Part shown: positions 44,636-57,791 of the stretch, piece by piece
Numbering within the stretch: position 1 is the stretch's first letter
How the letters are laid out: the number at the start of each line of letters is the position of its first letter
DNA from: an alpha proteobacterium SCGC AAA536-K22
GTDB lineage: Bacteria > Pseudomonadota > Alphaproteobacteria > Puniceispirillales > Marisalimonadaceae
DNA: 64,000 bases
Direction: 5' to 3'
Assembly (NCBI GenBank): GCA_000421325.1
Contig: ATWQ01000011.1
Coordinates: 1-64,000 of the forward strand
Translations under genes and position numbers: made by a program
The notes under the pieces: generated by a model
What the model was told of the DNA's origin: nothing
Databases searched by the model: none
The model's input: the letters and a program-made list of their open reading frames with translations, nothing else

Positions 44636-45622
44636 CTACAAAACGTTTTTATTTATAATAACTTCAGGGTTTACTTTATTATCAAAGACATCAAGTATGT
44701 TTTGTACTGCTTGTTTTGACATTCTAATGGTAGCTTCTTGGGTTACACCTGCGATGTGAGGTGAGAGTAAAATATTGTCTAAACTAAAAAGTGGGTTTGA
44801 AGATGTCGATGGTTCATCGTCATAAACATCCAAACCGGCTCCTCTTATAATTTTGGATTTTAATGCATTTAATAAAGCCTTTTCATTTACAATCCCTCCC
44901 CTAGCACAATTAATTAGAAATGAACTTTCTTTCATAATTTTAAATTCATTATCTGAAAACATGTTTGTTGTTTCATTGTTTTTGGGACAATGTAATGATA
45001 CAGCATCCATTTGGGATAAAATATCTAAAAAATTATCTACAAGAACTGCGCCAGATTTTTTTATTTCTTCTGCATTAACATAAGGGTCATAAACATAAAC
45101 ATTCATATCAAAAGCAAGTGCCCTTTTAACTAACCTTGAGCCTATTCTGCCAAAACCGATAACGAGCAGATTTTTTTCAGCAACATCCCATGCTCGTATA
45201 TCCCAACGAGTAGTCCAATCTGCTTTGCGCGCGAAACTGTCATAATAAAAAACATTTTTGGATAGGGCTAACAGCATAAACATAGCGTGTTCTGCAACTG
45301 AAATCATATTTGAATGTGCAGCTATAGCTAGAGGTATATTACTATCATTCAATGCATCGACATCAATTGAGTCATATCCAACACCATGCCTGGAAACTAT
45401 TAATAAATTTTTAGAGTTTTCAATTATTTTTCTTGAAATATTGGCCGTCCTAACAGTGATACCATGAACTTCCTTTGCAGCCTCCATAATCTCATTTTCA
45501 TTAGCCGACATTATAGTAATTGGCTCAATATCATCTCTTTCCAACAATAATTTTTTACCTTCTTCGTGAAGACCTTGAACCATCAAAACTTTCTTTTTAT
45601 TAGTTGGATTGTTATTGACCAT
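44636..45622 (-). CDS. D-isomer-specific 2-hydroxyacid dehydrogenase
   Basis: The 328-residue NAD-dependent enzyme is of the SerA/hydroxypyruvate reductase group. It has a Rossmann motif NLLVIGFGRIGSRLVKRA near residue 157, the catalytic arginine in INCARGGIVNE near 233, the glutamate in DVYDDEPS near 263 and the histidine in LSPHIAGVT near 280. At this length it lacks the C-terminal regulatory domain of long SerA. It is the first gene of the operon with the HpaI aldolase, reductase and TauE exporter genes. Confidence 0.9.
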   Translation of the reverse strand: MVNNNPTNKKKVLMVQGLHEEGKKLLLERDDIEPITIMSANENEIMEAAKEVHGITVRTANISRKIIENSKNLLIVSRHGVGYDSIDVDALNDSNIPLAIAAHSNMISVAEHAMFMLLALSKNVFYYDSFARKADWTTRWDIRAWDVAEKNLLVIGFGRIGSRLVKRALAFDMNVYVYDPYVNAEEIKKSGAVLVDNFLDILSQMDAVSLHCPKNNETTNMFSDNEFKIMKESSFLINCARGGIVNEKALLNALKSKIIRGAGLDVYDDEPSTSSNPLFSLDNILLSPHIAGVTQEATIRMSKQAVQNILDVFDNKVNPEVIINKNVL

Positions 45623-45768: not shown

Positions 45769-47235
45769 ATGAAAACTAAAGCATTTATTCGCCGCGTTGG
45801 TTTTGGCCTTAAGCCTGACGAACAAGTCCCTAAAAATGCACTGGATTGGGCAAAAGAACAAATGCTAGTTGTGCCAAAATTAATTTGGCCGGGTAGAATT
45901 TACTCGGAAAAAGAAATGTTAGATATTAGAGTAGATTTCACCACTTCTGAAGATAAACTTCAAAAGACCGAAAAAGATCCATCAAAAGCTAAAGCAAAGA
46001 AAAGAAAATTATATCGTAGGACTGGACGAAAATTTTTTGAACGATATGAATTAGCTATTAGGCATCATCAAGCAGTGTATGGAAATCAACCAGTATTTGA
46101 ACGTTTTTGGCACTTTTGGGGAAATCATTTTGCCATTGTTGATAAAAATAAATTACCAGTTTTTAATACGGGCCCAATGCAAAGAGAACAATTACGCCCA
46201 TTAATGACAGGAAGATTTGCAGATATGGTCTATGACATGACTTTAACATGGCCAATGATAAAAAGTTTAGATAATTTTAAATCAAGAGGTCCCAATTCAG
46301 CATTTAATGTAAATAGAAGACGTAAAAACAAACCTGAAAAAGGATTAAACGAAAACCATGGCAGAGAATTATTAGAACTTCATACTATTTCTCCTCAAGC
46401 AGGATATACTCAAGTAGATGTCATTAATGCCGCTTATATTATGACAGGATGGGGTTTTATTGGTGGTAAAAAAGGTGTTGAAGCAAAAAAAATAGGTTAT
46501 CTAGGCAGTCTTCATGAGCCAGGCACACACACAGTTCTTGGAAAAAAATATAAAACAGAAGGCTTTAGTTCTAAGACAAAAGGTAAAAAACAATTACGTA
46601 ATCTTATTGAAAATCTCTGCGAGAGTGAAGACTGTATAAATTTTATAGCCTGGAAATTATGTAGACACTTTATTTGTGATGACCCAAAAACAGAAATGAT
46701 GAAAATTATAATTGATGCTTGGAAAAAATCCAAAGGAATGCTTCCAGATATTCACAAGGCTGTCCTTGAAGCTACATGGAAATACGGTGAACCTGAACAG
46801 AAATTCCTTTCACCAGAAACTTGGCTTATACAAATTGCAAGAATGACTGGAGCTGATTGGCCTGGGAACCCCAAAATTTTTGAATATGATTTCGAATCTA
46901 GGCTTAATTATAAACAAAAGAAAATTAGTTGGATACTTGGTGAATTAGGGCACCTGCCTTTCAGAGCTAAACAACCAAACGGATTTCCAGATACTGAAGC
47001 AGAGTGGCTTTCACAAGAATATCTAGTTAGACGAATTGCATTAGTGAATAACCCTACTCAAATCGGATTATATAAAAATTCATTACCATTAATTGATATT
47101 TCAAAAAAAATGGTAAATAAAAATTTTGATGATCCTAGAAAATTGTTGGGTATTTTAAGAAAATTAGAAAATAAGAATAGTAATTCAAATTCTTTAATTG
47201 CCGTATTATGTAGTAGAAAGGTTTTAAAAGTATGA
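45769..47235 (+). CDS. DUF1800 family protein
   Basis: The 488-residue protein is of the DUF1800 family. It has HFWGNHFAI near residue 122, the NENHGRELLELHTI motif near residue 198 and YTQVDVINAAYIMTGWG near 218, followed by FIAWKLCRHFICDDP near 295. Unlike many relatives it shows no signal peptide. Genes of this family nearly always precede a DUF1501 gene, as here, where the two overlap as ATGA. The function is unknown; the pair is thought to act at the cell surface or periplasm. Confidence 0.85.
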   Translation: MKTKAFIRRVGFGLKPDEQVPKNALDWAKEQMLVVPKLIWPGRIYSEKEMLDIRVDFTTSEDKLQKTEKDPSKAKAKKRKLYRRTGRKFFERYELAIRHHQAVYGNQPVFERFWHFWGNHFAIVDKNKLPVFNTGPMQREQLRPLMTGRFADMVYDMTLTWPMIKSLDNFKSRGPNSAFNVNRRRKNKPEKGLNENHGRELLELHTISPQAGYTQVDVINAAYIMTGWGFIGGKKGVEAKKIGYLGSLHEPGTHTVLGKKYKTEGFSSKTKGKKQLRNLIENLCESEDCINFIAWKLCRHFICDDPKTEMMKIIIDAWKKSKGMLPDIHKAVLEATWKYGEPEQKFLSPETWLIQIARMTGADWPGNPKIFEYDFESRLNYKQKKISWILGELGHLPFRAKQPNGFPDTEAEWLSQEYLVRRIALVNNPTQIGLYKNSLPLIDISKKMVNKNFDDPRKLLGILRKLENKNSNSNSLIAVLCSRKVLKV

Positions 47236-48377
47236 ATGTTTCACGACGTATTTTTTTATCCGGCTCAGCTTCATTAATAGTTTCCGCTCCAATAATATCA
47301 AGAGCCTTTGGTTCAACTTCAACAAAGAAAAATCTTGTTGTTATAATGTTACGTGGTGGAATGGACGGCCTTACGGCAGTACCTTTTATCGGTAATAATA
47401 TTCTTAGAAAAGCTAGGCCAGATATTGGAGTAGATAAACCTATAAAAATTACTGCTGATTTTGCACTCCATCCACAGCTTAAAAAATTCAAAAAATTATG
47501 GGACAAAAATAAGGCATCTATCTTTCACGCGACCTCTATACCATATACAGGTAGATCACACTTTGAAGGACAATACCTAATGGAAAGTGGTGGAACTGTA
47601 CCTTATTATGATAAGACCGGATGGCTTGGAAGAGCTCTCGACACAGCAAATAAAAAAAGTTTGTCTATCTCACTTCCAATGCCTCTTATCCTAAGAGGCG
47701 GAAAAGATCTTGATAATTTTATGCCTTCAGCTAATAGATTGCCTAGTGATGAAACATTAAAAATTTTAGCAGCTGACTATCATGAAGATGAAGTGTTAAG
47801 CAATGTTTTACGTACCATACGAAAGAGGCCAATAGCAATGATGCAAACTAGTAAGAATTCAAGCCAAGACGTAAAAAGATTAGCTAAGATTGCAGGTCAG
47901 CAACTGGTCCAACCTAACGGACCAAGTATTGCAGTGTTTGATATAGCAGGATTTGACACTCATGCTGATCAAGGAGGTGACTATGGAGAGCATGCAAAAA
48001 AATTAAAACAATTTGACGAAATAATTGGTACATTAGAGGATGAATTAGGTTCTGCTTTTGAAAATACAATAATTGTTTCACTTACAGAATTTGGAAGAAC
48101 AGTTGACCAAAATGGAGGGTCTGGAACAGAACATGGTTATGGTTCTGCCATTCTTATGGCTGGCGGTCTATTACCTAAATCAAAAATAATAGGTGACTGG
48201 CCTGGTCTAGAAAAAAAGAATTTATTTGAAGGTCGTGATTTAGATTCTTCGATTGATGCTAGAGCTGTTTATGCATCAATTCTTGCTCGAGTTTTAGATA
48301 GAGATCATAGAGAGATAATTAAAAACGCTTTTTTTAATGCTAATCTTCCAGACATGTCCCAGAGGATTTTTGGATAA
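47232..48377 (+). CDS. DUF1501 family protein, Tat-exported
   Basis: The 381-residue protein has a twin-arginine signal (VSRRIFLSG, then a hydrophobic stretch to about residue 25). Family motifs are MLRGGMDGLTAVP near residue 38, FHATSIPYTGRSHFEGQYLME near 98 and TEFGRTVDQNGGSGTEHGYGSA near 296. The DUF1501 fold is related to alkaline-phosphatase-like/sulfatase enzymes, but no activity is established. Its stop lies 28 bases before the outermost tRNA-Phe fragment, so it marks the chromosomal side of the integrated region. Confidence 0.88.
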   Translation: MNVSRRIFLSGSASLIVSAPIISRAFGSTSTKKNLVVIMLRGGMDGLTAVPFIGNNILRKARPDIGVDKPIKITADFALHPQLKKFKKLWDKNKASIFHATSIPYTGRSHFEGQYLMESGGTVPYYDKTGWLGRALDTANKKSLSISLPMPLILRGGKDLDNFMPSANRLPSDETLKILAADYHEDEVLSNVLRTIRKRPIAMMQTSKNSSQDVKRLAKIAGQQLVQPNGPSIAVFDIAGFDTHADQGGDYGEHAKKLKQFDEIIGTLEDELGSAFENTIIVSLTEFGRTVDQNGGSGTEHGYGSAILMAGGLLPKSKIIGDWPGLEKKNLFEGRDLDSSIDARAVYASILARVLDRDHREIIKNAFFNANLPDMSQRIFG

Positions 48378-48405: not shown

Positions 48406-48461
48406 TGGTACCCGGTGGCGGATTCGAATCACCGACACGAGGATTTTCAGTCCTCTGCTCT
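48406..48461 (-). repeat. Truncated tRNA-Phe 3' fragment (outer att-like repeat)
   Basis: This 56-bp copy covers the D-stem 3' strand to CCA and differs from the intact tRNA-Phe at 3 positions. It keeps the GAA anticodon loop but lacks the 5' acceptor strand and most of the D arm, so it cannot make a tRNA. One difference breaks a T-stem pair. It probably corresponds to the attR end of the oldest insertion. Confidence 0.9.
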
Positions 48462-48542
48462 TCTACAAATCTACTTAGGCATATCTAAGACATAACAAAA
48501 TAATATTACCATAGTCACATCTCCGTCACACGGAGGATGTAA
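48462..48542. repeat. Conserved right-end sequence, cassette A
   Basis: These 81 bp align without gaps to the sequence after the second tRNA fragment (52975-53055) with about 9 mismatches. They contain the 17-bp motif GTCACATCTCCGTCACA at 48514-48530, starting 108 bp from the CCA end of the fragment, the same spacing as in cassette B. An imperfect hairpin surrounds it (CTCCG tcaca CGGAG). Confidence 0.85.
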
Positions 48543-48914
48543 AATGGCGTAATTTAGAAAAATACTGGTGCAAAGATACAGCCAAGTAAAATGCAATACA
48601 AGCTGTAGAAGTGTGAATTAATTTTTTAAAAATTTGTCAAGTTATTAAGTCTGATAGCATTTTTTAACATAAAGTGTACACTTCTTTTCAAATTACTTGT
48701 ATCTAATATCATTAGATTTTTTCTCTTTACAAATTTCAATTTTTACATCATCTCCATTAGTTGTCTCACTTTTTAAAAAATCTATTTCTAGTTAAAACAT
48801 CTTGTTCTCATATTATTTCACTTATATATATTTTTTAAATTTTAAATATACTTCTAAAATACTACCCCTTTTGGCACATACATTGCAATTTTGGATTATC
48901 AAAAAAGGAAAAAT
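48543..48914. other. Noncoding leader inside cassette A
   Basis: This AT-rich stretch lies between the right-end repeat and the methyltransferase gene. I see no ORF with coding character, no RNA gene and no strong inverted repeat. It presumably carries the promoter of the TPR-methyltransferase gene, but no convincing -35/-10 pair stands out. Confidence 0.5.
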
Positions 48915-51035
48915 ATGAATAGTATTTCTATTGATCAATCTTTATTGAAGGCAAAAGCGTATTCTCGTAAGGGAGAAAATGAACAAGCTATAAATATTTG
49001 TAAGGATATATTGATTAAATTTCCAAATAACAATAGGGTAAAAAATCAAATATTTTTGCTAACTCAATCAGTGATTAGACCACATAAAGAAAAACTAATT
49101 GATTTACTTAATAATAATAGATTTAAAGAAATGGAATTTTATGCTCAAACTTGTTTTGAGCGTTTTCCATATTCTTATGAAATTAAAAATCTTCTTGGTA
49201 TAGCACAAATAAATCAAAATCAATTTGAGAAAGGAGAATTTACTTTTAAAAAAGCATATCAACTTGAACCTAAAAATCCCTACATAACATATAACTTAGG
49301 TAACGCATTACAACATCAAAATAAATTAAATGAAGCTTTAGCAATCTATGACAAAGCTATCTCACTAAAACCTAATTTTTATGAAGCAATATGCAGTGCC
49401 AGTGAAGCTCTAATAAAACTTGAAAGATCAGATGAAGCTGTCATTTCAATAATGAAGGCTATTAAATTAAAAAAAGATGCTACGCAAGCCTATATAATTT
49501 TAGGTAATGCATTTAAAAATCTCGAATTTAAAAAACCAAATCTAGAACTCCAAAGTAACATAATAAAACTTTTAGATAAAAAAAGTTTATTCCAACCAGT
49601 TGAAATAACTTTATCTATGATAAGTCTTTTAAAAACTGATAAAAACCTTATGAGCGTAATTAACGCAGCACTTCAGTCAGATTTAAGTTTAACTTTATCA
49701 AAAATAATTAACACATTTTCAAATAATAAACTTTTTTTAAAATTTTTAGGTGTTTCTCTAATCCCTGATATCGATTTTGAGAAAGTTTTACAAATTATCA
49801 GAACTTCTATATTGCAAAATATTTATACATTACCAAATAATTTCAAAATACAAAATTTCCAATCATATCTAGCCATTCAGTGTTTCATGAATGACTTCAT
49901 ATACGAAGAATTAAAAAAAGAAAAAGAATTACTATTTAAATTAGAAGCAAAGATAGAGAATTATTTAAATAATGGAAGACAACCCCCATTATCTTATATT
50001 TTGTGTTTAGCTAGTTATAGAAAGATAGGATCTTATAAATGGAGTAAATTAATATTATTTCCAGATAACTTTATACAAACAAGTAAAATCCTAATAAACA
50101 ATGAAATTGAAGAAAAAATAATTTCATCAGAAATACCTATTCTTAATAAAATTTTAGACAGCACTTCTTTGAAGGTTAAAACACAATATGAAGAAAACCC
50201 TTACCCTACGTGGGATTGTATCAGATTACCTTGGAAGCCTCTCACTATAGCAGAAATTGTAAATAATAGAAAAATGAAACTTCATGATAACGAAATCAAA
50301 CGAAATTCATTCCCTGAAATTCTTATAGCAGGATGTGGAACTGGACAGCAATCTATAAGTACAGCTTTACTTTTTAAAAATTCTCAAGTGTTAGCAATTG
50401 ATTTAAGTATGAAAAGTTTAAGTTTTGCAAAAAGAAAAAGTCAAGAGATTGGGCTTAAAAATATAAAATATATTCAAGCAGATATTTTAGATTTGAAAAA
50501 TTTAAACAAAAGTTTCGACGTTATCGAAAGTGTAGGAGTACTTCATCACATGAAAGACCCAATGATTGGTTGGAAAATACTCCTAGATTTACTAAAAACT
50601 GGAGGCTTAATGAAAATTGGTCTTTACAGTAAAGCAGCAAGGCTGGACGTAGAGTTAACAAGAAGTGAGATTAATAATTTAAAAATTGCAACAAGCTTAG
50701 AAAATTTGAAATCCTTTAGAAAAGTAATTATAAATTCTAATAAATTACACCATGTAAGCCTAAGAAAATCCTATGATTTTTATAATACAAGTATGTTCCG
50801 TGATCTTATTTTTCATTCAACTGAACATTGTTTTACAATTTCACAAATAAAAGAAGCTTTAGATTCGTTAGATTTAAAATTTTGTGGGTTTGAAGACGAA
50901 ATGATTAACAAGAATTTCGAAAAAACTTATAGTAAGTTTAACGATAGATATGATCTTGACAAATGGGATGTATATGAAAAAAACTTCCCGCAAACTTTCG
51001 AACATATGTATCAGTTTTGGTGTCAAAAAAATTAA
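48915..51035 (+). CDS. TPR protein with C-terminal SAM-dependent methyltransferase domain
   Basis: The protein has about 706 residues. The N-terminal 200 residues are tetratricopeptide repeats (for example NPYITYNLGNALQHQNKLNEA and the following NFYEAICSASEAL). A less conserved helical middle follows, then QYEENPYPTW near residue 430 and a class I methyltransferase with the SAM motif ILIAGCGTGQQS near 470, an acidic residue in VLAIDLS, and VLHHMKDP. The ATG with AAAGGAAAA upstream was chosen over a TTG 24 bases earlier. Targets of such TPR-methyltransferases are unknown; modification of glycans or glycoproteins is a guess. It converges on the next gene with a 19-base gap. Confidence 0.83.
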   Translation: MNSISIDQSLLKAKAYSRKGENEQAINICKDILIKFPNNNRVKNQIFLLTQSVIRPHKEKLIDLLNNNRFKEMEFYAQTCFERFPYSYEIKNLLGIAQINQNQFEKGEFTFKKAYQLEPKNPYITYNLGNALQHQNKLNEALAIYDKAISLKPNFYEAICSASEALIKLERSDEAVISIMKAIKLKKDATQAYIILGNAFKNLEFKKPNLELQSNIIKLLDKKSLFQPVEITLSMISLLKTDKNLMSVINAALQSDLSLTLSKIINTFSNNKLFLKFLGVSLIPDIDFEKVLQIIRTSILQNIYTLPNNFKIQNFQSYLAIQCFMNDFIYEELKKEKELLFKLEAKIENYLNNGRQPPLSYILCLASYRKIGSYKWSKLILFPDNFIQTSKILINNEIEEKIISSEIPILNKILDSTSLKVKTQYEENPYPTWDCIRLPWKPLTIAEIVNNRKMKLHDNEIKRNSFPEILIAGCGTGQQSISTALLFKNSQVLAIDLSMKSLSFAKRKSQEIGLKNIKYIQADILDLKNLNKSFDVIESVGVLHHMKDPMIGWKILLDLLKTGGLMKIGLYSKAARLDVELTRSEINNLKIATSLENLKSFRKVIINSNKLHHVSLRKSYDFYNTSMFRDLIFHSTEHCFTISQIKEALDSLDLKFCGFEDEMINKNFEKTYSKFNDRYDLDKWDVYEKNFPQTFEHMYQFWCQKN

Positions 51036-51054
51036 TATTGTTTAATTTAAATAT

Positions 51055-52752
51055 TTATATTAATTCAATATCAAATGAAATACTAACTCTATTACTGTTT
51101 CCTAAATACGGAATAGTCCCATGCCATACATAAGAGGGAAACAGTATTAACATTCCTAATTCTGGTTTAATAACTTGAACTTCTCTATCCCCACCAAAAT
51201 GCGGCAAATCATAACCTGATCTATTAAATTCAATCCAACTAGCATTTTTTTTTCTTTCTAAGGATAAATCTGGAAGATCAACATAATAAACACCACTCAT
51301 CCACCCTTGATCGTGTATATGGTTAGTTTGATAATCACCAGAACCAAGTAAATTTACCCAGCAATCGATATTATACTTTTTTGGCTTACCTATTAAAAAG
51401 GGATGGTGTACATTTTGCGGTAGTTTGTTAATTCTGTTATCAATAGCTCTTGTAAGCAAAGTTTGAAATTTTCTAATAGTGGTGTCAGAATTTTTAAACA
51501 ATTTTCTTATTACTGTTCCACCTCGAATAGCCCACCCTATATTATTCTCTTCAACTCGTCGTGGATGATTTTTTAAAACCGACAATAGTTCTAAGTTAAA
51601 TAAATTAATATTTTCATTTGTATAATTTTGAATGTTATCAACATGAACCAAATTAGGAAAATCAACTAATTGATTTGCTTCATTAAATCTTTCTAATCCT
51701 CTTAGTGCAATGTATTTGTAAGCAAGTGCTCTAGTGTCCATTGGTCTATCAACAAGGGCATCTTCCAAAAATTTTAATCCATTCTCACAATCCATTTTTT
51801 CTTTAAGATAAAATTCAGCTAAAAGCATTTTTTGATCAAAATTGGGATTAAGCAAATAACTTTTTATATAACTTTTTAACGCTTGATCTTTCTTTCCATG
51901 TTCAATTAACAGTTTACCTAAATTGTTATGATAAAATATATTGTAAGGGTTTATACTAATTGCATTAGTATAATTTTGAAATGATTGGTCAAAACACCCT
52001 AATTTATAGTATGTAAATCCAATACAATTATAAGCTTCAGCAAACTTAGGGAACGTTTTTAAAGATTTATTGTAATAAAAAAGAGCCTGATCAAAATTTT
52101 TCATTTCACTATATGTATTTCCAATATTAATGTAAATCTCTGGACTATTTGGTTGAAAAGTTAGTACTTTATTAAAGTGTACTAAAGAATCTTTATATCT
52201 TTTCATTTTATGATATATTATGCCTAAATAATTATGTAGCTTTAGAGATTCAGGGAACTTACAAATCAATTCGTTTGTAAGATTTAAAGCAATTTGATTT
52301 TTCTCGAGAGCTAGAAGATCATCAATAGATTTTAATTTTTCTATTCCTGGATCTCCCTTTTTTATACTTTTTTCACCTATGGCTTTGTTTTTAGCAATAC
52401 TTTCCAATGTTGAATTTAAATCTTCAAAAGATTTTCCAGACACTCCAAATTCTTTTGCTTTTAAACATGTTTTTGTGGCCTCAGCAATATTATTAGAGCT
52501 TATTAATGCATTTATATAGCTAACCCAAAATTGATATTCATTGGGATTAGCTTTTAAAGCATTTCTAAAATAAAATATAGAATTTTTAAAATCTCCCTTA
52601 TTTGAAATCAAATCACCCTTATTATGATTGGCAATCGGATGCTTTGGATCCATTTGTAAAACATTGTTATAAAGATTGGATGCATCATTAAACATTTCAG
52701 CTTTATGAAATTCTATAGCTTTTGTAAGAGCTTGTTCTATCGTTAATCGCAA
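51055..52752 (-). CDS. TPR protein with C-terminal 2OG-Fe(II) oxygenase-like domain
   Basis: The protein has 565 residues. Roughly residues 1-330 are TPR repeats, such as NSPEIYINIGNTYSEMKNFDQA. The C-terminal 190 residues have NHIHDQGWMSGVYYVDLP near 477 and GMLILFPSYVWHGTIPY near 533, followed by RVSISFDI; this resembles the putative 2OG-Fe(II) oxygenases with HIH and distal His iron ligands. The start is TTG, preceded by AAAAGGT. This leader and start are homologous to those of the TPR gene in cassette B, which supports the start. The role could be hydroxylation of a sugar or protein. Confidence 0.8.
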   Translation of the reverse strand: MRLTIEQALTKAIEFHKAEMFNDASNLYNNVLQMDPKHPIANHNKGDLISNKGDFKNSIFYFRNALKANPNEYQFWVSYINALISSNNIAEATKTCLKAKEFGVSGKSFEDLNSTLESIAKNKAIGEKSIKKGDPGIEKLKSIDDLLALEKNQIALNLTNELICKFPESLKLHNYLGIIYHKMKRYKDSLVHFNKVLTFQPNSPEIYINIGNTYSEMKNFDQALFYYNKSLKTFPKFAEAYNCIGFTYYKLGCFDQSFQNYTNAISINPYNIFYHNNLGKLLIEHGKKDQALKSYIKSYLLNPNFDQKMLLAEFYLKEKMDCENGLKFLEDALVDRPMDTRALAYKYIALRGLERFNEANQLVDFPNLVHVDNIQNYTNENINLFNLELLSVLKNHPRRVEENNIGWAIRGGTVIRKLFKNSDTTIRKFQTLLTRAIDNRINKLPQNVHHPFLIGKPKKYNIDCWVNLLGSGDYQTNHIHDQGWMSGVYYVDLPDLSLERKKNASWIEFNRSGYDLPHFGGDREVQVIKPELGMLILFPSYVWHGTIPYLGNSNRVSISFDIELI

Positions 52753-52918
52753 AATAATTACCTTTTATTAAATATTTGCAAAAATCAGACCATAATTCAT
52801 AATCTCGGTCACACCTCAGTCACAGTTGTTTAATAGATTAGCTATAAATTAAAATTCTTTAGATATTAACTAGTGAGGTGTTGTCAACAGTTTAGTTAAG
52901 TCTGATATAGAAGAAACG
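52753..52918. repeat. Conserved left-end sequence, cassette A
   Basis: The last 141 bp (52778-52918) align without any gap to 55727-55867 with about 12 mismatches, and weaker similarity continues to the TTG start codon of the TPR gene. It holds the 17-bp motif GTCACACCTCAGTCACA at 52808-52824, which starts 111 bp before the adjoining tRNA fragment, exactly as in cassette B. It doubles as the 5' leader of the minus-strand TPR gene. Confidence 0.88.
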
Positions 52919-52974
52919 TGGTGACCGGGGGCGGATTCAAACCACCGACACGAGAATTTTCAGTCCTCTGCTCT
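52919..52974 (-). repeat. Truncated tRNA-Phe 3' fragment (inner att-like repeat)
   Basis: This 56-bp copy differs from the intact gene at 3 positions, different from the changes in the outer copy. It lacks the 5' acceptor strand and most of the D arm. It separates the two cassettes and serves as the boundary of both. Confidence 0.9.
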
Positions 52975-53055
52975 TGTATAAATCTACGCAGGCATATCTA
53001 AGACTTAACAAAATAATATTACCATAGTCACACCTCCATCACATAGAGGATGTAA
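52975..53055. repeat. Conserved right-end sequence, cassette B
   Basis: These 81 bp match the right end of cassette A without gaps. The 17-bp motif appears as GTCACACCTCCATCACA at 53027-53043, again 108 bp from the CCA end of the adjoining tRNA fragment. The kdsB homologue ends about 50 bp inside this boundary. Confidence 0.85.
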
Positions 53056-53105
53056 TTTAGTATTATTATTAATAATCCTAATAAATAAGTTTCGAATTAG
53101 CTTGA

Positions 53106-53948
53106 CTATGGTGTTTTATCTTTTTTTAATTGCTCTCTGATTTTTTCTAAGTCTTCGGGGGTATCAATAGCAAAAGAACTTCCACTTAATGCTATCATAC
53201 GAACATCATAACTCATTTCCAAAAATCTTAGAATTTCTATATCTTCAATTTGTTCTAAAGGAGTTTTATTTTTTTGCTGGGCAAATGATTTTAAACAGTC
53301 GACAGGAAATGCATAAATACAAATTTGCTTCCATGCCATCTCAAACTTTAAACTTTTTGTTGTTGGTATAGCTGCTCTGGTCATATAAAGTAATTTTCCA
53401 TCTGGTCTGGTAACGACTTTAGGTATATTTGGATTAAAAAATTGATCTTCAGTTTCTATGGTTGCCATACCGTTAATTATTTGACCAGGATATTTTATAG
53501 CAGCATCTATAACTTTTCTGATATCTTCTGGGTTAATAATAGGTTCATCTCCTTGTACATTTATAATAACGTCACATTTAATGTAATTACATGCTTCAGC
53601 AATTCTGTCAGTACCTGTCAAACAAGAACTAGACGTCATAAGAACATTTGCGTCAAAATCTTGACAATGTTTTTGTATAATTAAACTATCAGTAGCTACA
53701 TATACGTCTTGCTTGGGAAGTACTTCAATACATTTTTTATAAGTACGATTTAGCATACTTTTACCTTCAATGTCCTTCAAAGGTTTCCCTGGTAAACGAG
53801 AAGAATGATAACGAGCTGGGATAATAATAACAGGCCTCTTTTTTTGGATGAAATTACTTTGTTTTTTGCTTACGAAATTTTTTCTAATCAAGGGAGTCCT
53901 ATGCTTAGTATTTTCTAACGAGAAAAAGTTATTTATGTGTTTATTCAT
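53106..53948 (-). CDS. kdsB: CMP-KDO synthetase homologue (3-deoxy-manno-octulosonate cytidylyltransferase)
   Basis: The 280-residue nucleotidyltransferase has the KdsB motifs VIIIPARYHSSRLPGKPL near residue 40, LTGTDRIAEA near 109, INVQGDEPIINPEDI near 149 and TPLEQIEDIEILRFLE near 229. It would activate KDO (or a related acid sugar) with CTP for LPS or capsule. About 38 residues precede the usual N-terminus, an unusual basic extension. It follows the TPR-glycosyltransferase gene by 23 bases. Since KdsB is normally a core gene, this cassette copy may be a second one for a variable surface glycan. Confidence 0.85.
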   Translation of the reverse strand: MNKHINNFFSLENTKHRTPLIRKNFVSKKQSNFIQKKRPVIIIPARYHSSRLPGKPLKDIEGKSMLNRTYKKCIEVLPKQDVYVATDSLIIQKHCQDFDANVLMTSSSCLTGTDRIAEACNYIKCDVIINVQGDEPIINPEDIRKVIDAAIKYPGQIINGMATIETEDQFFNPNIPKVVTRPDGKLLYMTRAAIPTTKSLKFEMAWKQICIYAFPVDCLKSFAQQKNKTPLEQIEDIEILRFLEMSYDVRMIALSGSSFAIDTPEDLEKIREQLKKDKTP

Positions 53949-53971
53949 TTTTTTAATTTGCTCTTTAGTTA

Positions 53972-55702
53972 TTATTTTTTATTTTTGTATTTAAGAATAT
54001 CTTCTGCTATTAAGTGATAAATATTTTCCCAAGAATCTTCTGTGTTTCGTTCAAAAATCTTCACTAGAGGACCCGAAGGGTTAAATAATAAATTATTCCA
54101 TGAACTTTGCCGCCAATTAGCAAGTTTAGTTATGGTTCCTACTCCTGCTGCGATGAAAGCTACTGTAGTTTTAATGGATATAACAACATCTAGCGCAGAA
54201 CAAAGTGAGGCCACATCATCAAGGTCATCATATTGATTCAAGTCATCAAAATTGTGAATCTTAATTCCTATTTCGCTATAAGTTTTTGTCAAGTCATCTT
54301 TAAATTCACTATTTTGTAAATTTATGAATGTAACATTAGGAAGTTTAAGTACTGGATATAAATCAGATATTTTAGCGTAATTTGGTTGACGCGTTGATGT
54401 TATATTTGAACTCTTCCAACAAATACCAATGAATGGACCATGTCCTAAAGATTTGAGTCGTTGTTTCCAAAAATTTACTCTTAATTGATCAGGAAAAAGA
54501 AAAGGCTTTGGTCTAACGTTTTGACTAATCTCATAAAAAAATTGCTTATACAGACTTCCCAATGGTAAGTGAAAATCAAAATCCTCTCTTTTCAAGTCTA
54601 AGTCTCTATTTTCTTTTTTGATCTTTATGTTTGGAAATGAACGCTTAAATAAAGGCACTAATTTCTCCTGACATTCCAAAATAAAATGTTCATCCTTGGA
54701 GTTAATAAATGATAGATATGAAGACCAATTAATTGTTTCTGCAATACCTTGTTCACTCCACAATAAAATCCTTTTACCATGCATATATTTTTTTTTATCC
54801 CACAAAGATTGTAAAAAATATCTTTGTTGCTTAATTAAATTAGAAGTTTTCCATCGCCATTCAAACTCATTAAGACCTTCTTTCAATATTCCACTGTTAA
54901 GAAGTACATAACTTAAGCAAAGGTGTGCCTCAGCATAGTTTGGGTTAAGAGATATTGTTTTTCTAAAAGCGATTATTGCATCGCTATATTTTCCCAGATC
55001 ATGTAAAGAAACACCTATGTTACATAGGGCTTCAGCGAAATCAGGTTTAATTGAAATCGCCTTATAGTACATCTTTATTGAATCTTTTAGCTTAAATTTA
55101 TCTCGAAGAACATTACCCAAATTACAATAGACTTCAGCATAATCAGGTTTTATAGATAGTGCTTTTATATAAACCTCAATTGCTTTGTCTAGTTTACCTT
55201 GCTCATGGAGAATAACTCCCATATTACAATAGGCATCAACGTAATCAGGTTTGATAGAAAGTGAATCATTAAAGGCCTTAATGGAATCATTAAACCTCCC
55301 TATTTGTTTAAAAGCTCTTCCCATATTATAATGTGCATTAGCATAGTCTGGTTTAATGGAAATTGCTTTCTTGTAAGAATTAATTGCTTCTTGTAACATT
55401 CCAAGATTATAAAGAGCAACTCCAAGATTACTATATGCTTCAACAAAATCTGGTTTGAGTAAAATAACATTTTTGAATGCGTCTATTGCTTTTTTCGAAT
55501 CACCTATTTGTGTTGCAGCTGCTCCAAGTATATTCCAAATTGAATACTCTTTTGAATAATTTTCTAACAGGATCTGTGCTTGTTCAATAACAAACAAATA
55601 ATTTTTTTTATTATAAAAAAAAACTAATTGGTCTAATACTTCTCTAGGTGGTTTATGGAAACTACTAGATTTTAAATGAACTTCTTTAAATTTATGTCTC
55701 AA
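53972..55702 (-). CDS. TPR protein with C-terminal glycosyltransferase-like domain
   Basis: The protein has 576 residues. From about residue 45 to 285 there are some seven highly regular TPR units containing repeated SIKPDYA-type ends. The C-terminal 270 residues start with GLNEFEWRWKT and contain GKRILLWSEQGIAETI near 310 and FIGICWKSSNIT near 405. VVISIKTTVAFIAAGVG near 515 resembles the GT-B (GT9/heptosyltransferase- or OGT-like) fold. The usual active-site residues are not certain. The start is TTG, in a leader homologous to that of the cassette A TPR gene. Together with kdsB it suggests surface polysaccharide assembly. Confidence 0.8.
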   Translation of the reverse strand: MRHKFKEVHLKSSSFHKPPREVLDQLVFFYNKKNYLFVIEQAQILLENYSKEYSIWNILGAAATQIGDSKKAIDAFKNVILLKPDFVEAYSNLGVALYNLGMLQEAINSYKKAISIKPDYANAHYNMGRAFKQIGRFNDSIKAFNDSLSIKPDYVDAYCNMGVILHEQGKLDKAIEVYIKALSIKPDYAEVYCNLGNVLRDKFKLKDSIKMYYKAISIKPDFAEALCNIGVSLHDLGKYSDAIIAFRKTISLNPNYAEAHLCLSYVLLNSGILKEGLNEFEWRWKTSNLIKQQRYFLQSLWDKKKYMHGKRILLWSEQGIAETINWSSYLSFINSKDEHFILECQEKLVPLFKRSFPNIKIKKENRDLDLKREDFDFHLPLGSLYKQFFYEISQNVRPKPFLFPDQLRVNFWKQRLKSLGHGPFIGICWKSSNITSTRQPNYAKISDLYPVLKLPNVTFINLQNSEFKDDLTKTYSEIGIKIHNFDDLNQYDDLDDVASLCSALDVVISIKTTVAFIAAGVGTITKLANWRQSSWNNLLFNPSGPLVKIFERNTEDSWENIYHLIAEDILKYKNKK

Positions 55703-55867
55703 AATATTACTCTTTTTTATTAATGAGCAAAAATCATACCAAAATGTATTTTCTCGGTCACACCTCAGTCACAATTGTTTAATAGATTGGCTATAAATTA
55801 AGATTCTTTAGATATTAACTAGTAAGGTGTTATCAACAGTTTAGTTAAGTCTGATATAGAAGAAAAG
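55703..55867. repeat. Conserved left-end sequence, cassette B
   Basis: The last 141 bp (55727-55867) pair with 52778-52918 of cassette A, ungapped. The motif GTCACACCTCAGTCACA is at 55757-55773, 111 bp from the CCA end of tRNA-Phe. It lies directly downstream of the tRNA on the minus strand and forms the leader of the TPR-glycosyltransferase gene. Confidence 0.88.
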
Positions 55868-55943
55868 TGGTGCCCGGGGGCGGATTCGAACCACCGACAC
55901 GAGGATTTTCAGTCCTCTGCTCTACCTACTGAGCTACCCGGGC
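55868..55943 (-). tRNA. tRNA-Phe (GAA), intact
   Basis: This is a 76-nt cloverleaf with encoded CCA: acceptor GCCCGGG/CCCGGGC, D arm GCUC/GAGC, anticodon stem GAGGA/UCCUC with loop CUGAAAA (anticodon GAA at 55908-55910), variable loop GUGUC and T arm with UUCGAAU. Its 3' 56 bases recur twice downstream as truncated copies, marking it as the integration target. Confidence 0.98.
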
Positions 55944-56003: not shown

Positions 56004-56180
56004 TCAAATATCTTTATCGTAATCAATCTCATTAGCTTGAATGGCGTATCTTTCGCCTAACCAATTATTTAAATCTACATTACTACAACGCTTAGAACAA
56101 AATGGCTTTGTTTTTAAAGTGATATCAAACTCTTTATTACAAGTAAGACATTTAACTTTTTTAAATTTTGATATAGTCAT
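56004..56180 (-). CDS. yacG: YacG-family zinc-binding DNA gyrase inhibitor
   Basis: The 58-residue protein has the four zinc cysteines CLTC (11-14) and FCSKRC (28-32), then VDLNNWLGERYAI. This is the standard YacG pattern. In E. coli YacG binds GyrB and blocks DNA binding. Its ATG overlaps the stop of the RNase gene as ATGA, so it is translationally coupled. The maf-RNase-yacG order is typical for alphaproteobacteria. Confidence 0.92.
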   Translation of the reverse strand: MTISKFKKVKCLTCNKEFDITLKTKPFCSKRCSNVDLNNWLGERYAIQANEIDYDKDI

Positions 56181-57199
56181 ACATTTATTTCCATTAACTC
56201 ACCATAATCCTTGGGAAGATCTGATCTTTCAACAATATTTATAAAAGACGGCACTTTTCTACTTTTTAAATTCTTAAACAAATTTGTTCCACATAAAAAT
56301 TGGACATTAGTTTTTGATTTTAGTTCTTTGGATTTTCTCCATAATGACCTTAAATGATTTTGAAAACTATATGTATGGCTATCCACATAAAAACTTTCTA
56401 ACGAAGGAAAGTTTCTGGGTACATACATTTCGTATAGAACTAATCTTGAAAAACCAAGAAAATTACCCTCAAAAAAATATTGTTTTCCTATTTTAGTAAT
56501 ATTTTCATGTAGATATTTTTTTCTATTATGTGACATCCTTGGAAAATCTATAAAAATCATACCTCCAATATTTCTAAGTTTAATTTCTTGAACACATCTA
56601 ACAAATGCTTTTATACAAAATTGCAGTATTTCTTCTTCAGAATTAAGTAATAATTTATGAGTGTCTATATCAATAAGTGTGGCTGCCCTAGTTTTTTCAA
56701 TCCAAATACGTCCACCCTCACTTAATTCTATTTTTGGTTGTAAAGCTCCAATAAATTCTTTCTCTAGGTCTAAAATATCCCAATAAATGGCGTACATGTC
56801 TTCTATAATAGGAATATTTTTTGTAAAAAAAAGATCTATTATCCTTTGGACATCATCTAAATTTTCATATTTTTTTGAGTTTGAAAGTAATATTCTTGCT
56901 TGAATAGGCTTGTCCTCAAATTCTTCGCTTATAATTATTATTTTTATTTTATTATTTACATTTAAAGATTTTGGGACACCTCTTACAGATAAAATCCTTT
57001 TATCTTTAATTTTTGCACGTACCACGCCACCATTCAATTTTTTGATAATAACAGCGTCATATACACTTCCAATTATTGGAGGGGTCGTGTCAAACCAAGC
57101 TATAAATTTTACAATCTTTTGATTTAGAATTTCTACTATTCTTGTTTGTTCTGCGCATTTATCTATTAAAATAAAATGATCATTAATTTTATCAATCAT
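56177..57199 (-). CDS. Short ribonuclease E/G family protein
   Basis: The 340-residue protein is related to the catalytic part of RNase E/G: GGRIWIEKTRAATLIDIDTH near residue 183 and IGGMIFIDFPRMSHNRKKYL near 235 match the DNase I-like metal-binding region. It lacks the C-terminal zinc-link and small domain of full RNase G (about 490 residues), as do the short forms encoded beside maf and yacG in alphaproteobacteria. The ATG at 57199 overlaps the maf stop; a TTG six codons upstream is the alternative. It probably takes part in rRNA or mRNA processing. Confidence 0.85.
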   Translation of the reverse strand: MIDKINDHFILIDKCAEQTRIVEILNQKIVKFIAWFDTTPPIIGSVYDAVIIKKLNGGVVRAKIKDKRILSVRGVPKSLNVNNKIKIIIISEEFEDKPIQARILLSNSKKYENLDDVQRIIDLFFTKNIPIIEDMYAIYWDILDLEKEFIGALQPKIELSEGGRIWIEKTRAATLIDIDTHKLLLNSEEEILQFCIKAFVRCVQEIKLRNIGGMIFIDFPRMSHNRKKYLHENITKIGKQYFFEGNFLGFSRLVLYEMYVPRNFPSLESFYVDSHTYSFQNHLRSLWRKSKELKSKTNVQFLCGTNLFKNLKSRKVPSFINIVERSDLPKDYGELMEINV

Positions 57200-57791
57200 T
57201 GTTAAATTTATATCCAATAGATAAAAGAGCTCTGTATATTTCTGCTAAGGGTAAACCTACAACATTGCTGTAAGAACCTGACAAAAAATTAATATAAGAT
57301 GCTGCAAGTCCCTGTATTGCATACCCCCCAGCTTTGCCTTCCCATTCCTTAGATTTAAGGTAATAGTCTAACTCTACAGAGTGAAGTCTTTTAAATTTTA
57401 CAGTAGACTGAATTGTTTTAACTTTAAGAGGAAAATCTGGCGAGTACAAAGTAAAACTTGTTAATACGTTATGTCTTCTGCCTGAAATCAACTTGAGGCA
57501 TTCTTCTGCCATTTTTAAGTCTATGGTTTTAGGCAATATCCTTCTTCCTAACGAAACTACAGTATCAGCAGTCAGAATTATAGAGTTGAAATATTTGGAT
57601 TGAAAAACCTTATTTTTTTCAATAGACATTCTTCTTACATAATCCAAAGGTAACTCCTTATAATGATTAGTTTCATTTATGTCTGGAGTTAATACTAAAT
57701 CAGGTTTTACGGATATTTGGTTTAAAAGATCAAGCCGCCTTGCAGAACCAGAAGCTAGTATAAACTGTTTGTTCAATTTAGTTTTGTTCAT
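57192..57791 (-). CDS. maf: Maf-like nucleoside triphosphate pyrophosphatase
   Basis: The 199-residue protein has the Maf motifs LASGSARRLDLL near residue 12, TADTVVSLGRRIL near 74 and WEGKAGGYAIQGLAASYI near 149. Maf proteins hydrolyse dTTP, UTP or modified nucleotides. It follows infA by 24 bases and overlaps the RNase gene. Confidence 0.92.
   Translation of the reverse strand: MNKTKLNKQFILASGSARRLDLLNQISVKPDLVLTPDINETNHYKELPLDYVRRMSIEKNKVFQSKYFNSIILTADTVVSLGRRILPKTIDLKMAEECLKLISGRRHNVLTSFTLYSPDFPLKVKTIQSTVKFKRLHSVELDYYLKSKEWEGKAGGYAIQGLAASYINFLSGSYSNVVGLPLAEIYRALLSIGYKFNND

Follow-up and report, generated by a model that had tools for sequence, protein, structure and literature searches.

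The 64,000-nucleotide (nt) stretch analyzed here (the window, from contig 11 of alpha proteobacterium SCGC AAA536-K22) carries two tandem units, U1 and U2, behind its tRNA-Phe gene, and this array very probably consists of two integrase-deleted relics of one tRNA-targeting element family, accreted serially at that gene. Since they share their end anatomy, retain integrase remnants in their left ends, and have a precise empty counterpart in a relative, U1 and U2 are relics of a satellite-like SAR116 element family, similar in kind to cis-mobilizable elements (CIMEs), and not duplications. The host assembly (G000) spans 2.0 Mb in 92 contigs and is ∼80% complete. It was compared within a genus sample of 40 genomes, host included, 30 of which matched the tRNA-Phe end; 32 loci were fetched from those 30 (G, C, and L numbers denote genomes, contigs, and fetched loci).

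The sequence-only reading of this DNA had described three same-strand copies of the tRNA-Phe 3′ part, one intact and two truncated, as bounding two units, and both coordinates and spacings agree with it, the tRNA pieces lying 2,949 bp (U2) and 4,513 bp (U1) apart from start to start (Table 1). In the assembled host genome, the 56-bp tRNA-Phe 3′ part was matched at these three sites only, and no second full tRNA-Phe copy was found in the ∼80% complete assembly. The right ends (REs) of U1 and U2 align without gaps at 94% identity over 81 bp, 87% over 166 bp, and 35% beyond, and the left ends (LEs), also gapless, at 87% over 141 bp, of which the tRNA piece forms part, and 32% beyond. The shared left end of 141 bp reported earlier is thereby confirmed, whereas the right end extends over ∼145–166 bp rather than the 81 bp first given. 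As had been noted, neither U1 nor U2 contains a recombinase open reading frame (ORF).

In G031, the corresponding end forms the leader of a gene for a tyrosine recombinase (PF00589, E 1.6e-24), which is 318 amino acids (aa) long when read from the ATG aligned with the stubs. The left end of U1 aligns into the coding region of this gene (G031:C30:1–57) and keeps its first six codons, the third of which is a TAA stop, while U2 keeps the integrase leader and has no start codon. Other lineages have other breakpoints: ∼30 integrase codons are left in G037, G017, G034, and G024, followed by the same cargo, and in G033 codon ∼14 is fused to codon ∼282. In 10 of the 11 tRNA-Phe left ends available from the genus (U1 and U2 included), the integrase is deleted or reduced to a stub and the arm site described below is kept. 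Close copies of the integrase are open in 5 of the 40 genomes (G031, G022, G016, G034, and G002; 84–100% identity) and frameshifted in G018 and G019. In SAR116 AG-895-J18 (L170), a 57/58 tRNA-Phe piece occurs together with an intact integrase (81%) and an arm site free of mismatches, and the far-flank genes of L170 indicate the same chromosomal locus as that of the window array. Twelve named loci carry integrase-family relatives, 11 from the SAR116 cluster and one from Alpha proteobacterium SCGC AAA536-G10. A tyrosine recombinase with the same ends, for which the sequence-only reading had recommended a search of the rest of the genome, is found intact in relatives.

A 17-bp motif, TGTGACNGAGGTGTGAC, occurs once in each of the four unit ends, on one strand and with at most one mismatch, at a fixed distance from the tRNA sequence of 69 nt in the left ends and 95 nt in the right ends. 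The four window matches compare with 0 in 100 shuffles, and the host has no others. Across the genus, 28 matches (≤1 mismatch) were detected in 18 of 40 genomes, as compared to 0 for a reversed control. All 28 lie at tRNA-Phe or tRNA-Met islands, and 24 adjoin a tRNA-Phe or tRNA-Met gene or piece at the usual spacing. Exceptions are G006:C5 (1.4 kb behind tRNA-Phe, behind another integrase), G031:C30 (at a contig edge, beside the integrase gene), and G034:C2:70590, whose tRNA piece is lost; the motif of G006:C13 lies 3.9 kb behind the tRNA-Met gene but 81 nt behind a tRNA-Met piece. With up to three mismatches, the motif is 92–96 nt from the tRNA end in 13 of 14 tRNA-Phe right ends (73 nt in G038; the G006 relict, 1.4 kb away, is left out of the 14) and, in all eight tRNA-Phe left ends that could be measured, 67–71 nt from the piece. 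In the host's taxonomic family, 26 of 58 genomes, from 3 of 4 genera, contain the motif, again with 0 matches to the reversed control. Fixed spacing on both sides and retention after integrase loss suggest that these are putative arm-type integrase sites, and we take their layout to resemble the arms of lambda-type integrases.

The tRNA-Phe gene and the 2-hydroxyacid dehydrogenase gene beyond the far side of the island share one contig in 20 of the 40 genomes, with a gap that ranges from 243 bp (G015) to 11,430 bp (G034). Nine of these 20 genomes carry arm sites (≤3 mismatches), G033 on the left only and G006 as the relict only; the other 11 have none, and one of them, G030, retains weak traces of both ends. 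When all 30 genomes with a match to the locus are considered, 16 have arm sites there, and two complete tandem units are found in G000 and G037. Cassette number and content thus vary at one tRNA locus across relatives, empty sites included, the pattern of an additive island. The same two units are absent from all 29 congeners with a match to the locus, within the reach of their contigs, and the empty and alternative sites anticipated by the sequence-only reading were both found, G013 being empty and other cassettes occurring elsewhere. In G013, the tRNA-Phe gene runs directly into a DUF1501 gene. At the far boundary of the array, this precise empty site can be followed across the tRNA end and for 203 aligned positions more, 182 of them identical, and it does not match the near side (RE; 80/182). 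The next-best empty site is G012 (146/192 far, 84/194 near), while G023 (86/138 far, 104/185 near), G009 (93/182, 97/190), and G022 (91/184, 105/184) are too diverged to tell. The DUF1800/DUF1501 pair itself was rejected as a conserved far flank, as in several relatives it is absent, found in either orientation, or part of the cargo of a unit (G016).

Three same-strand tRNA pieces in a row could also be produced by tandem duplication or unequal crossing-over at the tRNA gene in the absence of any site-specific element, but the arm sites, the integrase stubs, the intact integrases at the same ends, the precise empty site, and the unrelated cargo between the repeats make this origin very improbable. 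An artefact of assembly or single-cell amplification is hardly credible. The sample names of named congeners presumably point to single-cell genomes, and contig G001:C6 has inverted ends like those of amplification chimeras; against this, of the 30 genomes that match the tRNA-Phe locus, 16 repeat these ends at these spacings, and the window repeats differ enough (84–89%) to assemble. The direct repeats, fixed end anatomy, and precise empty site instead bear out serial site-specific integration at tRNA-Phe, as the sequence-only reading had proposed.

In the favored scheme of serial accretion, the recombinase would recognize core sites located within the 3′ half of its target tRNA gene, together with the 17-bp arm sites, which lie at a fixed distance on both sides. 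Each integration would rebuild the tRNA gene from the incoming copy and push the old 3′ piece and any older units outward; U1 would consequently have entered before U2, and the 3′ part of the intact gene (55868–55923) would be the copy brought by the last element to integrate. In U1 and U2, the integrase gene is deleted or cut to a stub, with the arm site retained. Units stripped in this way would be unable to move alone but, as the sister cassette described below shows, can still pass between cells, presumably with an integrase supplied in trans, by homologous recombination between their common ends, or by both.

The age of the units was estimated per boundary from the number of edits in displaced 47-nt tRNA ends. 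In a first set, 13 integrase-less boundaries exhibited 2–13 edits (U1, 3; U2, 3) and seven integrase-bearing boundaries 0–1, two of the seven having frameshifted integrases and one being a tRNA-Val element. Boundaries added later were G038 (integrase-less, 10 edits), three integrase-less tRNA-Met pieces with 0 edits (see below), and the integrase-bearing L170, L172, and L169 (1, 2, and 3 edits, respectively). Comparison of 17 integrase-less with 10 integrase-bearing boundaries (0–3 edits) gave a one-sided Mann–Whitney p of 0.001, or 0.16 for tRNA-Met alone. Because each of their displaced tRNA pieces carries three changes, U1 and U2 look like old residents. Excision of U2 would leave a tRNA-Phe changed at positions 40, 56, and 71, including a broken 2–71 pair, and excision of both units one changed at 53, 66, and 72. 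The predicted energy of tRNA-Phe is −34.3 kcal/mol for the intact gene and −24.8 and −25.8 kcal/mol after excision, and ARAGORN still calls both products tRNA-Phe. With the pieces decayed, and with excision predicted to leave a mutant, apparently single tRNA-Phe, U1 and U2 are probably fixed now.

Several observations weigh against an array of integrase-deleted, long-resident relics. Three integrase-less tRNA-Met pieces are perfect, with 0 edits (one in G002 and two in G006); on their account, the rule that integrase-less units are old was abandoned in general and kept for U1 and U2. The suggested descent of U2 from an integrase-bearing element is read from its leader alone. No close intact integrase was found in the assembled ∼80% of the host genome. 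The tRNA-Phe parent is known from far halves alone (G031:C30, L170, and L172), none of them end to end. Finally, the arm sites are deduced from conservation, spacing, and a likeness to lambda-type arms, and no excision product or circular form was seen by sequence comparison, which cannot reveal one.

The three perfect pieces start at tRNA position 30, the others at ∼20. Small integrase-less units with 109- and 153-aa ORFs lie behind tRNA-Met in both G006:C13 (L181 2560–6343) and G002:C3 (L154 12240–15221). Neither an arm motif (≤4 mismatches) nor a relative of any of the three integrases tried was found in these units, which look like a second, fresh kind of integrase-less unit.

Whole elements of the family were found at elongator tRNA-Met on four contigs (G022, ∼20 kb; G018, 16 kb; G002, 14 kb; G019, 27 kb). 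From the intact tRNA, their order is right arm site, AlpA-like gene, P4-family primase, HGG_STG protein, cargo, integrase, left arm site, and tRNA-Met piece. The combination of int, alpA, and DUF5906 primase, absent from U1 and U2, is present in G022 and G002, and with a frameshifted int in G018 and G019. Domain scores were obtained for the G031 copies (primase TIGR01613, 126.4 bits against a cut-off of 108.7; HGG protein NF041373; AlpA PF05930), to which the primase and AlpA copies at tRNA-Met are 83–97% alike. Three of the four parents hold an internal piece of initiator tRNA-Met and on that account may be composites; such pieces, 40–57 bp in length, were seen inside elongator tRNA-Met elements (L151, L154, and L156) and on host contig C4 (L145/L146). 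Part of the parent ORFs was scanned for domains. In that part, cargo is metabolic (polysaccharide lyase, CobW, GTP cyclohydrolase, MMPL transporter, periplasmic binding protein, and Na/H exchanger), and no conjugation gene was recognized. A PHROGs scan of 20 proteins, comprising three integrases and a subset of the parent ORFs, returned no convincing capsid or packaging match; weak matches of the AlpA-like protein to small terminases (E 2e-4 and 2e-3) and a tail protein (E 0.008) are read as helix-turn-helix likeness. Among IMG/VR viral contigs, no primase relative and one 25% integrase relative were detected, while 931 phage records match the primase, all at <60% identity and none over 80% of its length. 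Integrase-less units alongside parents with AlpA, P4-family primase, and integrase agree with the likeness to tRNA-targeted satellite islands that had been suggested. In G034 (L043 9561–9671), a piece of the parents' HGG gene (residues 2–38, 73%, E 5e-15) stands where the tRNA piece is expected behind the left arm site.

Movement after integrase loss was examined with a four-gene cassette (ATP-grasp, Alpha-E, transglutaminase, and a proteasome-like gene that we take to be of the Anbu type), which is the second unit at tRNA-Phe in G037 and the first in G024 and G034. The three copies have the same integrase breakpoint in three different array contexts. At 4-fold sites, the three pairs are identical at 334/373, 340/375, and 331/376 positions of the cassette (0.88–0.91), as compared to 423/736, 558/846, and 428/734 positions of neighboring core genes (0.575–0.66), and both chromosomal flanks of the moved cassette keep core-like divergence. 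The cassette was rejected as specific to tRNA-Phe, the ATP-grasp gene being present in 19 of the 40 genomes and mostly elsewhere. Transfer was retested by site-by-site 4-fold identity of the ATP-grasp gene in 12 of those 19 genomes, and it held: tRNA-Phe copies are 0.88–0.90 identical to one another and 0.81–0.85 to the five nearest copies elsewhere, and G032, the nearest to G024 in core genes among those compared (0.70), reaches only 0.41 in this gene. Since the cassette is far more alike than the core, the tRNA-Phe copies are closest to one another, and the breakpoint is shared, these comparisons lead us to conclude that the cassette passed between species after loss of its integrase. The host's own ATP-grasp gene (G000:C2:139511–140933) is matched as two overlapping pieces, the second with two stops, and is probably broken.

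Identity per 100 nt averages 95.6–96.0% in the cassette interior (range 87–100%) and is lower at the ends, with 81–85% in the first 100 nt of the RE and 76–90% in the integrase stub; the G024 stub is just 0.74 like the others. This drop in the RE and stub, together with the odd G024 stub, favors crossovers inside the ends in at least some transfers. It is a real, if tentative, possibility that after integrase loss cargo moves by ordinary homologous recombination, for which the tRNA gene and the unit ends in common would provide the arms; the array would then be a hot spot of recombination and not a set of mobile units. The identity steps lie inside the RE and LE and not at the attachment (att) core, which together with the G024 stub and the core-like divergence of both chromosomal flanks is consistent with such recombination. 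The homology arms, however, are just 100–200 bp long at ∼80% identity, and G037 and G024 retain the att anatomy on both sides of the cassette, G034 having lost the far tRNA piece.

Alternatively, the integrase of a co-resident or incoming parent would still move integrase-less cassettes as non-autonomous satellites. Integrase-less units retain both att ends and their arm sites, the cassette in G037, G024, and G034 shares its deletion junction and far exceeds the core in 4-fold identity, the ATP-grasp copies group by site, G016 and G034 pair integrase-less tRNA-Phe units with an intact family integrase at tRNA-Met, and the three perfect tRNA-Met pieces point to fresh integrase-less units, though ones without the family arm motif. 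Such an active system is nonetheless rather doubtful, given the 2–13 changes at the other 14 integrase-less boundaries and the lower identity of RE and stub relative to the interior, which points to crossovers in the ends. A broader proposal, that SAR116 bacteria harbor autonomous, satellite-like AlpA/P4-primase/integrase elements with metabolic cargo at tRNA-Met and tRNA-Phe, together with ∼3–7 kb cassettes that keep no more of them than att ends with integrase arm sites and spread between species as substrates and passengers of that integrase, is conceivable and is put forward with reserve; if true, such cassettes would be the tRNA-site counterpart of miniature inverted-repeat transposable elements (MITEs) or integrase-less integron arrays. 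The earlier statement that the units must be moved in trans is accordingly retained in part: integrase-deleted att ends and the movement of another integrase-less cassette fit it, whereas homologous recombination would account for some of the transfer and U1 and U2 appear to be old residents.

As relics accreted at a tRNA gene, U1 and U2 belong to a kind of system that is already known (PMC5704250, PMC3146451, PMC4119200, PMC10872708, PMC10803314, and PMC11389934). CIMEs related to Streptococcus integrative and conjugative elements (ICEs) have lost integration and transfer genes, kept attL and attR, and formed tandem arrays by accretion, and their movement is reported (Pavlovic 2004 and Bellanger 2011, as cited in PMC5704250). 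U1 and U2 likewise keep both att ends and have no integration gene and no transfer-family match in their four cargo ORFs. In contrast, CIMEs derive from ICEs or integrative and mobilizable elements (IMEs), while the parents here carry AlpA, P4-family primase, and integrase with no conjugation gene recognized in the ORFs scanned, and U1 and U2 are only presumed to have moved. The ssrA islands of Dehalococcoides, described as tandem, downstream of one RNA gene, and bounded by repeats of its 3′ end, with 15 that have no integration module (PMC3146451), resemble the window array in these respects but differ in having a serine recombinase, a tmRNA gene as target, and other cargo. By the definition of tycheposons quoted in PMC10872708, which includes a size of 4–200 kb, the elements described here are similar in being marine, bordered by tRNA genes (tRNA-Met among them), and cargo-carrying, with a tyrosine recombinase in the parents; U1 and U2 have no tyrosine recombinase of their own, and U2, at 2.9 kb, falls below that range, while U1, at 4.5 kb, is within it. 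The parents share PF00589, AlpA PF05930, and a DUF5906 primase (scored on the G031 copies) with the Vibrio phage satellites termed phage-inducible chromosomal minimalist islands (PICMIs; PMC10803314), from which they differ in size (14–27 kb), metabolic cargo, target (tRNA-Met/Phe, not fis), and bacterial class, and in having no known helper phage. Flexible genomic islands (fGIs) of Alteromonas (fGI1; PMC4119200) and Methylophilaceae (fGI-2; PMC10872708) also feature a tRNA gene as repeated cassette target, strain-variable cassette number, and tRNA-end repeats, whereas here the recombinase family, probable arm sites, and deletion events are identified. Titles and abstract openings of the papers listed on genomic islands and integrases in SAR116 or Puniceispirillum mention no such islands. 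The element family, its ends and stubs, and the case of transfer after deletion are new here. Tandem integrase-less islands are usually filed as degenerate; in this array, the deleted integrase is readable in the ends, intact relatives and probable binding sites can be named, and empty sites can be set against filled ones in 20 genomes, which makes cargo exchange without visible mobility genes in uncultured, streamlined marine bacteria a testable question.

Table 1. Features of the tRNA-Phe array and its flanks (window coordinates; TPR, tetratricopeptide repeat; 2OG, 2-oxoglutarate)
Feature	Position	Strand	Evidence or remark
Intact tRNA-Phe(gaa), attachment gene	55868–55943	−	ARAGORN
Displaced tRNA-Phe 3′ piece between U2 and U1	52919–52974	−	53/56; changes at tRNA positions 40, 56, 71
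Displaced tRNA-Phe 3′ piece, far end of U1	48406–48461	−	53/56; changes at tRNA positions 53, 66, 72
RE of U2, adjoining intact tRNA	55702–55867	−	Alignment to U1 RE; similar sequence adjoins tRNA-Phe in relatives
RE of U1	52753–52918	−	Alignment to U2 RE; similar sequence adjoins tRNA-Phe in relatives
LE of U2, leader of the lost integrase gene, without start codon	52975–53059	+	37 bp, 89% to G031:C30, E 4.1e-8
LE of U1, leader and first codons of deleted integrase gene	48462–48566	+	57 bp, 93% to G031:C30:1–57, E 5.7e-19
Integrase stub of U1	48544–48561	+	ATG GCG TAA TTT AGA AAA; G031 intact, ATG GCG TCA TTT AGG AAA
Putative arm-type site, RE of U2	55757–55773	−	TGTGACTGAGGTGTGAC, exact; 95 nt from tRNA end
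Putative arm-type site, RE of U1	52808–52824	−	Exact
Putative arm-type site, LE of U2	53027–53043	−	1 mismatch
Putative arm-type site, LE of U1	48514–48530	−	1 mismatch
U2 cargo: TPR protein, 576 aa	53972–55702	−	C-terminal domain without Pfam or PDB match
U2 cargo: KdsB-like cytidylyltransferase	53106–53948	−	NF009905, 293.5 bits, cut-off 255
U1 cargo: TPR and 2OG-Fe(II) oxygenase, 565 aa	51055–52752	−	PF13759
U1 cargo: TPR and class I methyltransferase, 714 aa	48891–51035	+	
DUF1800 and DUF1501 genes, variable part of island	45769–48377	+	
2-hydroxyacid dehydrogenase, first conserved gene beyond far side of island	44636–45622	−	
RNase E/G family gene, conserved near-side flank	56177–57217	−	

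The cargo of the window units was for the most part identified correctly by the sequence-only reading, the KdsB-like protein of U2 scoring above its cut-off and the TPR proteins of U1 having a 2OG-Fe(II) oxygenase (PF13759) and a class I methyltransferase part, respectively. The protein called a TPR-glycosyltransferase, by contrast, has no match past its TPRs, and a single-sequence structure model of its C-terminal part was discarded (mean predicted local distance difference test score, 34). The KdsB-like gene is a second copy in the host genome (the other, at G000:C15, is 38% identical), and its closest relative shows 44% identity, if one disregards a scrap of a KdsB gene at 72% that borders the outside of a tRNA-Met piece in G019:C6 (L156 4510–4764); KdsB-type cargo may once have been present in a tRNA-Met array too. 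For the methyltransferase part in U1, the closest relatives are 46–51% identical. For the four cargo proteins of the window, PADLOC returned matches of TPR type, a weak one of the 576-aa TPR protein to a PrimPol model (18.4 bits), and one of a methyltransferase domain to mad2, a generic pattern on which a phage-defense role of the cargo was rejected. At tRNA-Phe and its sister sites, cargo is mixed and includes the ATP-grasp/Alpha-E/transglutaminase/proteasome-like operon, a periplasmic binding protein, an ArsP permease, a polysaccharide lyase, CobW, and TPR proteins with methyltransferase, oxygenase, or glycosyltransferase-41 parts. With such mixed cargo and no clear PADLOC system, the earlier suggestion that the array varies the cell surface under phage pressure is not supported.

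The host's best relative of the family integrase (36–37% identity) belongs to a complete 6.4-kb element at tRNA-Val(gac) on G000:C8 (L158 3911–10397), where an intact integrase ORF lies beside the tRNA, the displaced copy of 67 bp is perfect, and arm-like motifs with two mismatches are found near both ends. Integrase C-terminal scraps in G000 (C4:15304, C4:25608, and C2:40068) were considered as further host arrays and rejected, having no arm motif and not being assignable to units; their neighborhoods contain tRNA-fMet pieces, which run opposite to the tRNA-fMet gene, and tRNA-Ser. On host contig C4 (L145/L146), the initiator tRNA-Met pieces are on the strand opposite to its tRNA-fMet gene.

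A DUF6538 integrase at tRNA-Phe in G006 (L049) was rejected as a cognate helper, as its relatives occur at tRNA-Leu, -Gly, and -Arg. It is taken for a second, unrelated visitor, with the old RE lying behind it, and the 1.5-kb surroundings of DUF6538 loci contain no arm motif except one 3-mismatch match in L083. Members of this family (PF20172 and PF00589; L066–L085) start ∼33–95 bp behind tRNA-Phe, -Leu(gag), -Gly, and -Arg genes, and the host has a copy at G000:C15:6716–7777 (L085). Of 30 loci fetched, 18 were tested, and in 15 of these the gene is followed downstream by an inverted copy, 17–102 bp long, of part of the stretch that runs from the tRNA 3′ end through the leader to the integrase 5′ end; 12 of the 15 copies are at least 97% identical. 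The longest inverted copies include the last 13–18 nt of the tRNA, and the DUF6538 unit would be symmetric and perhaps invertible.

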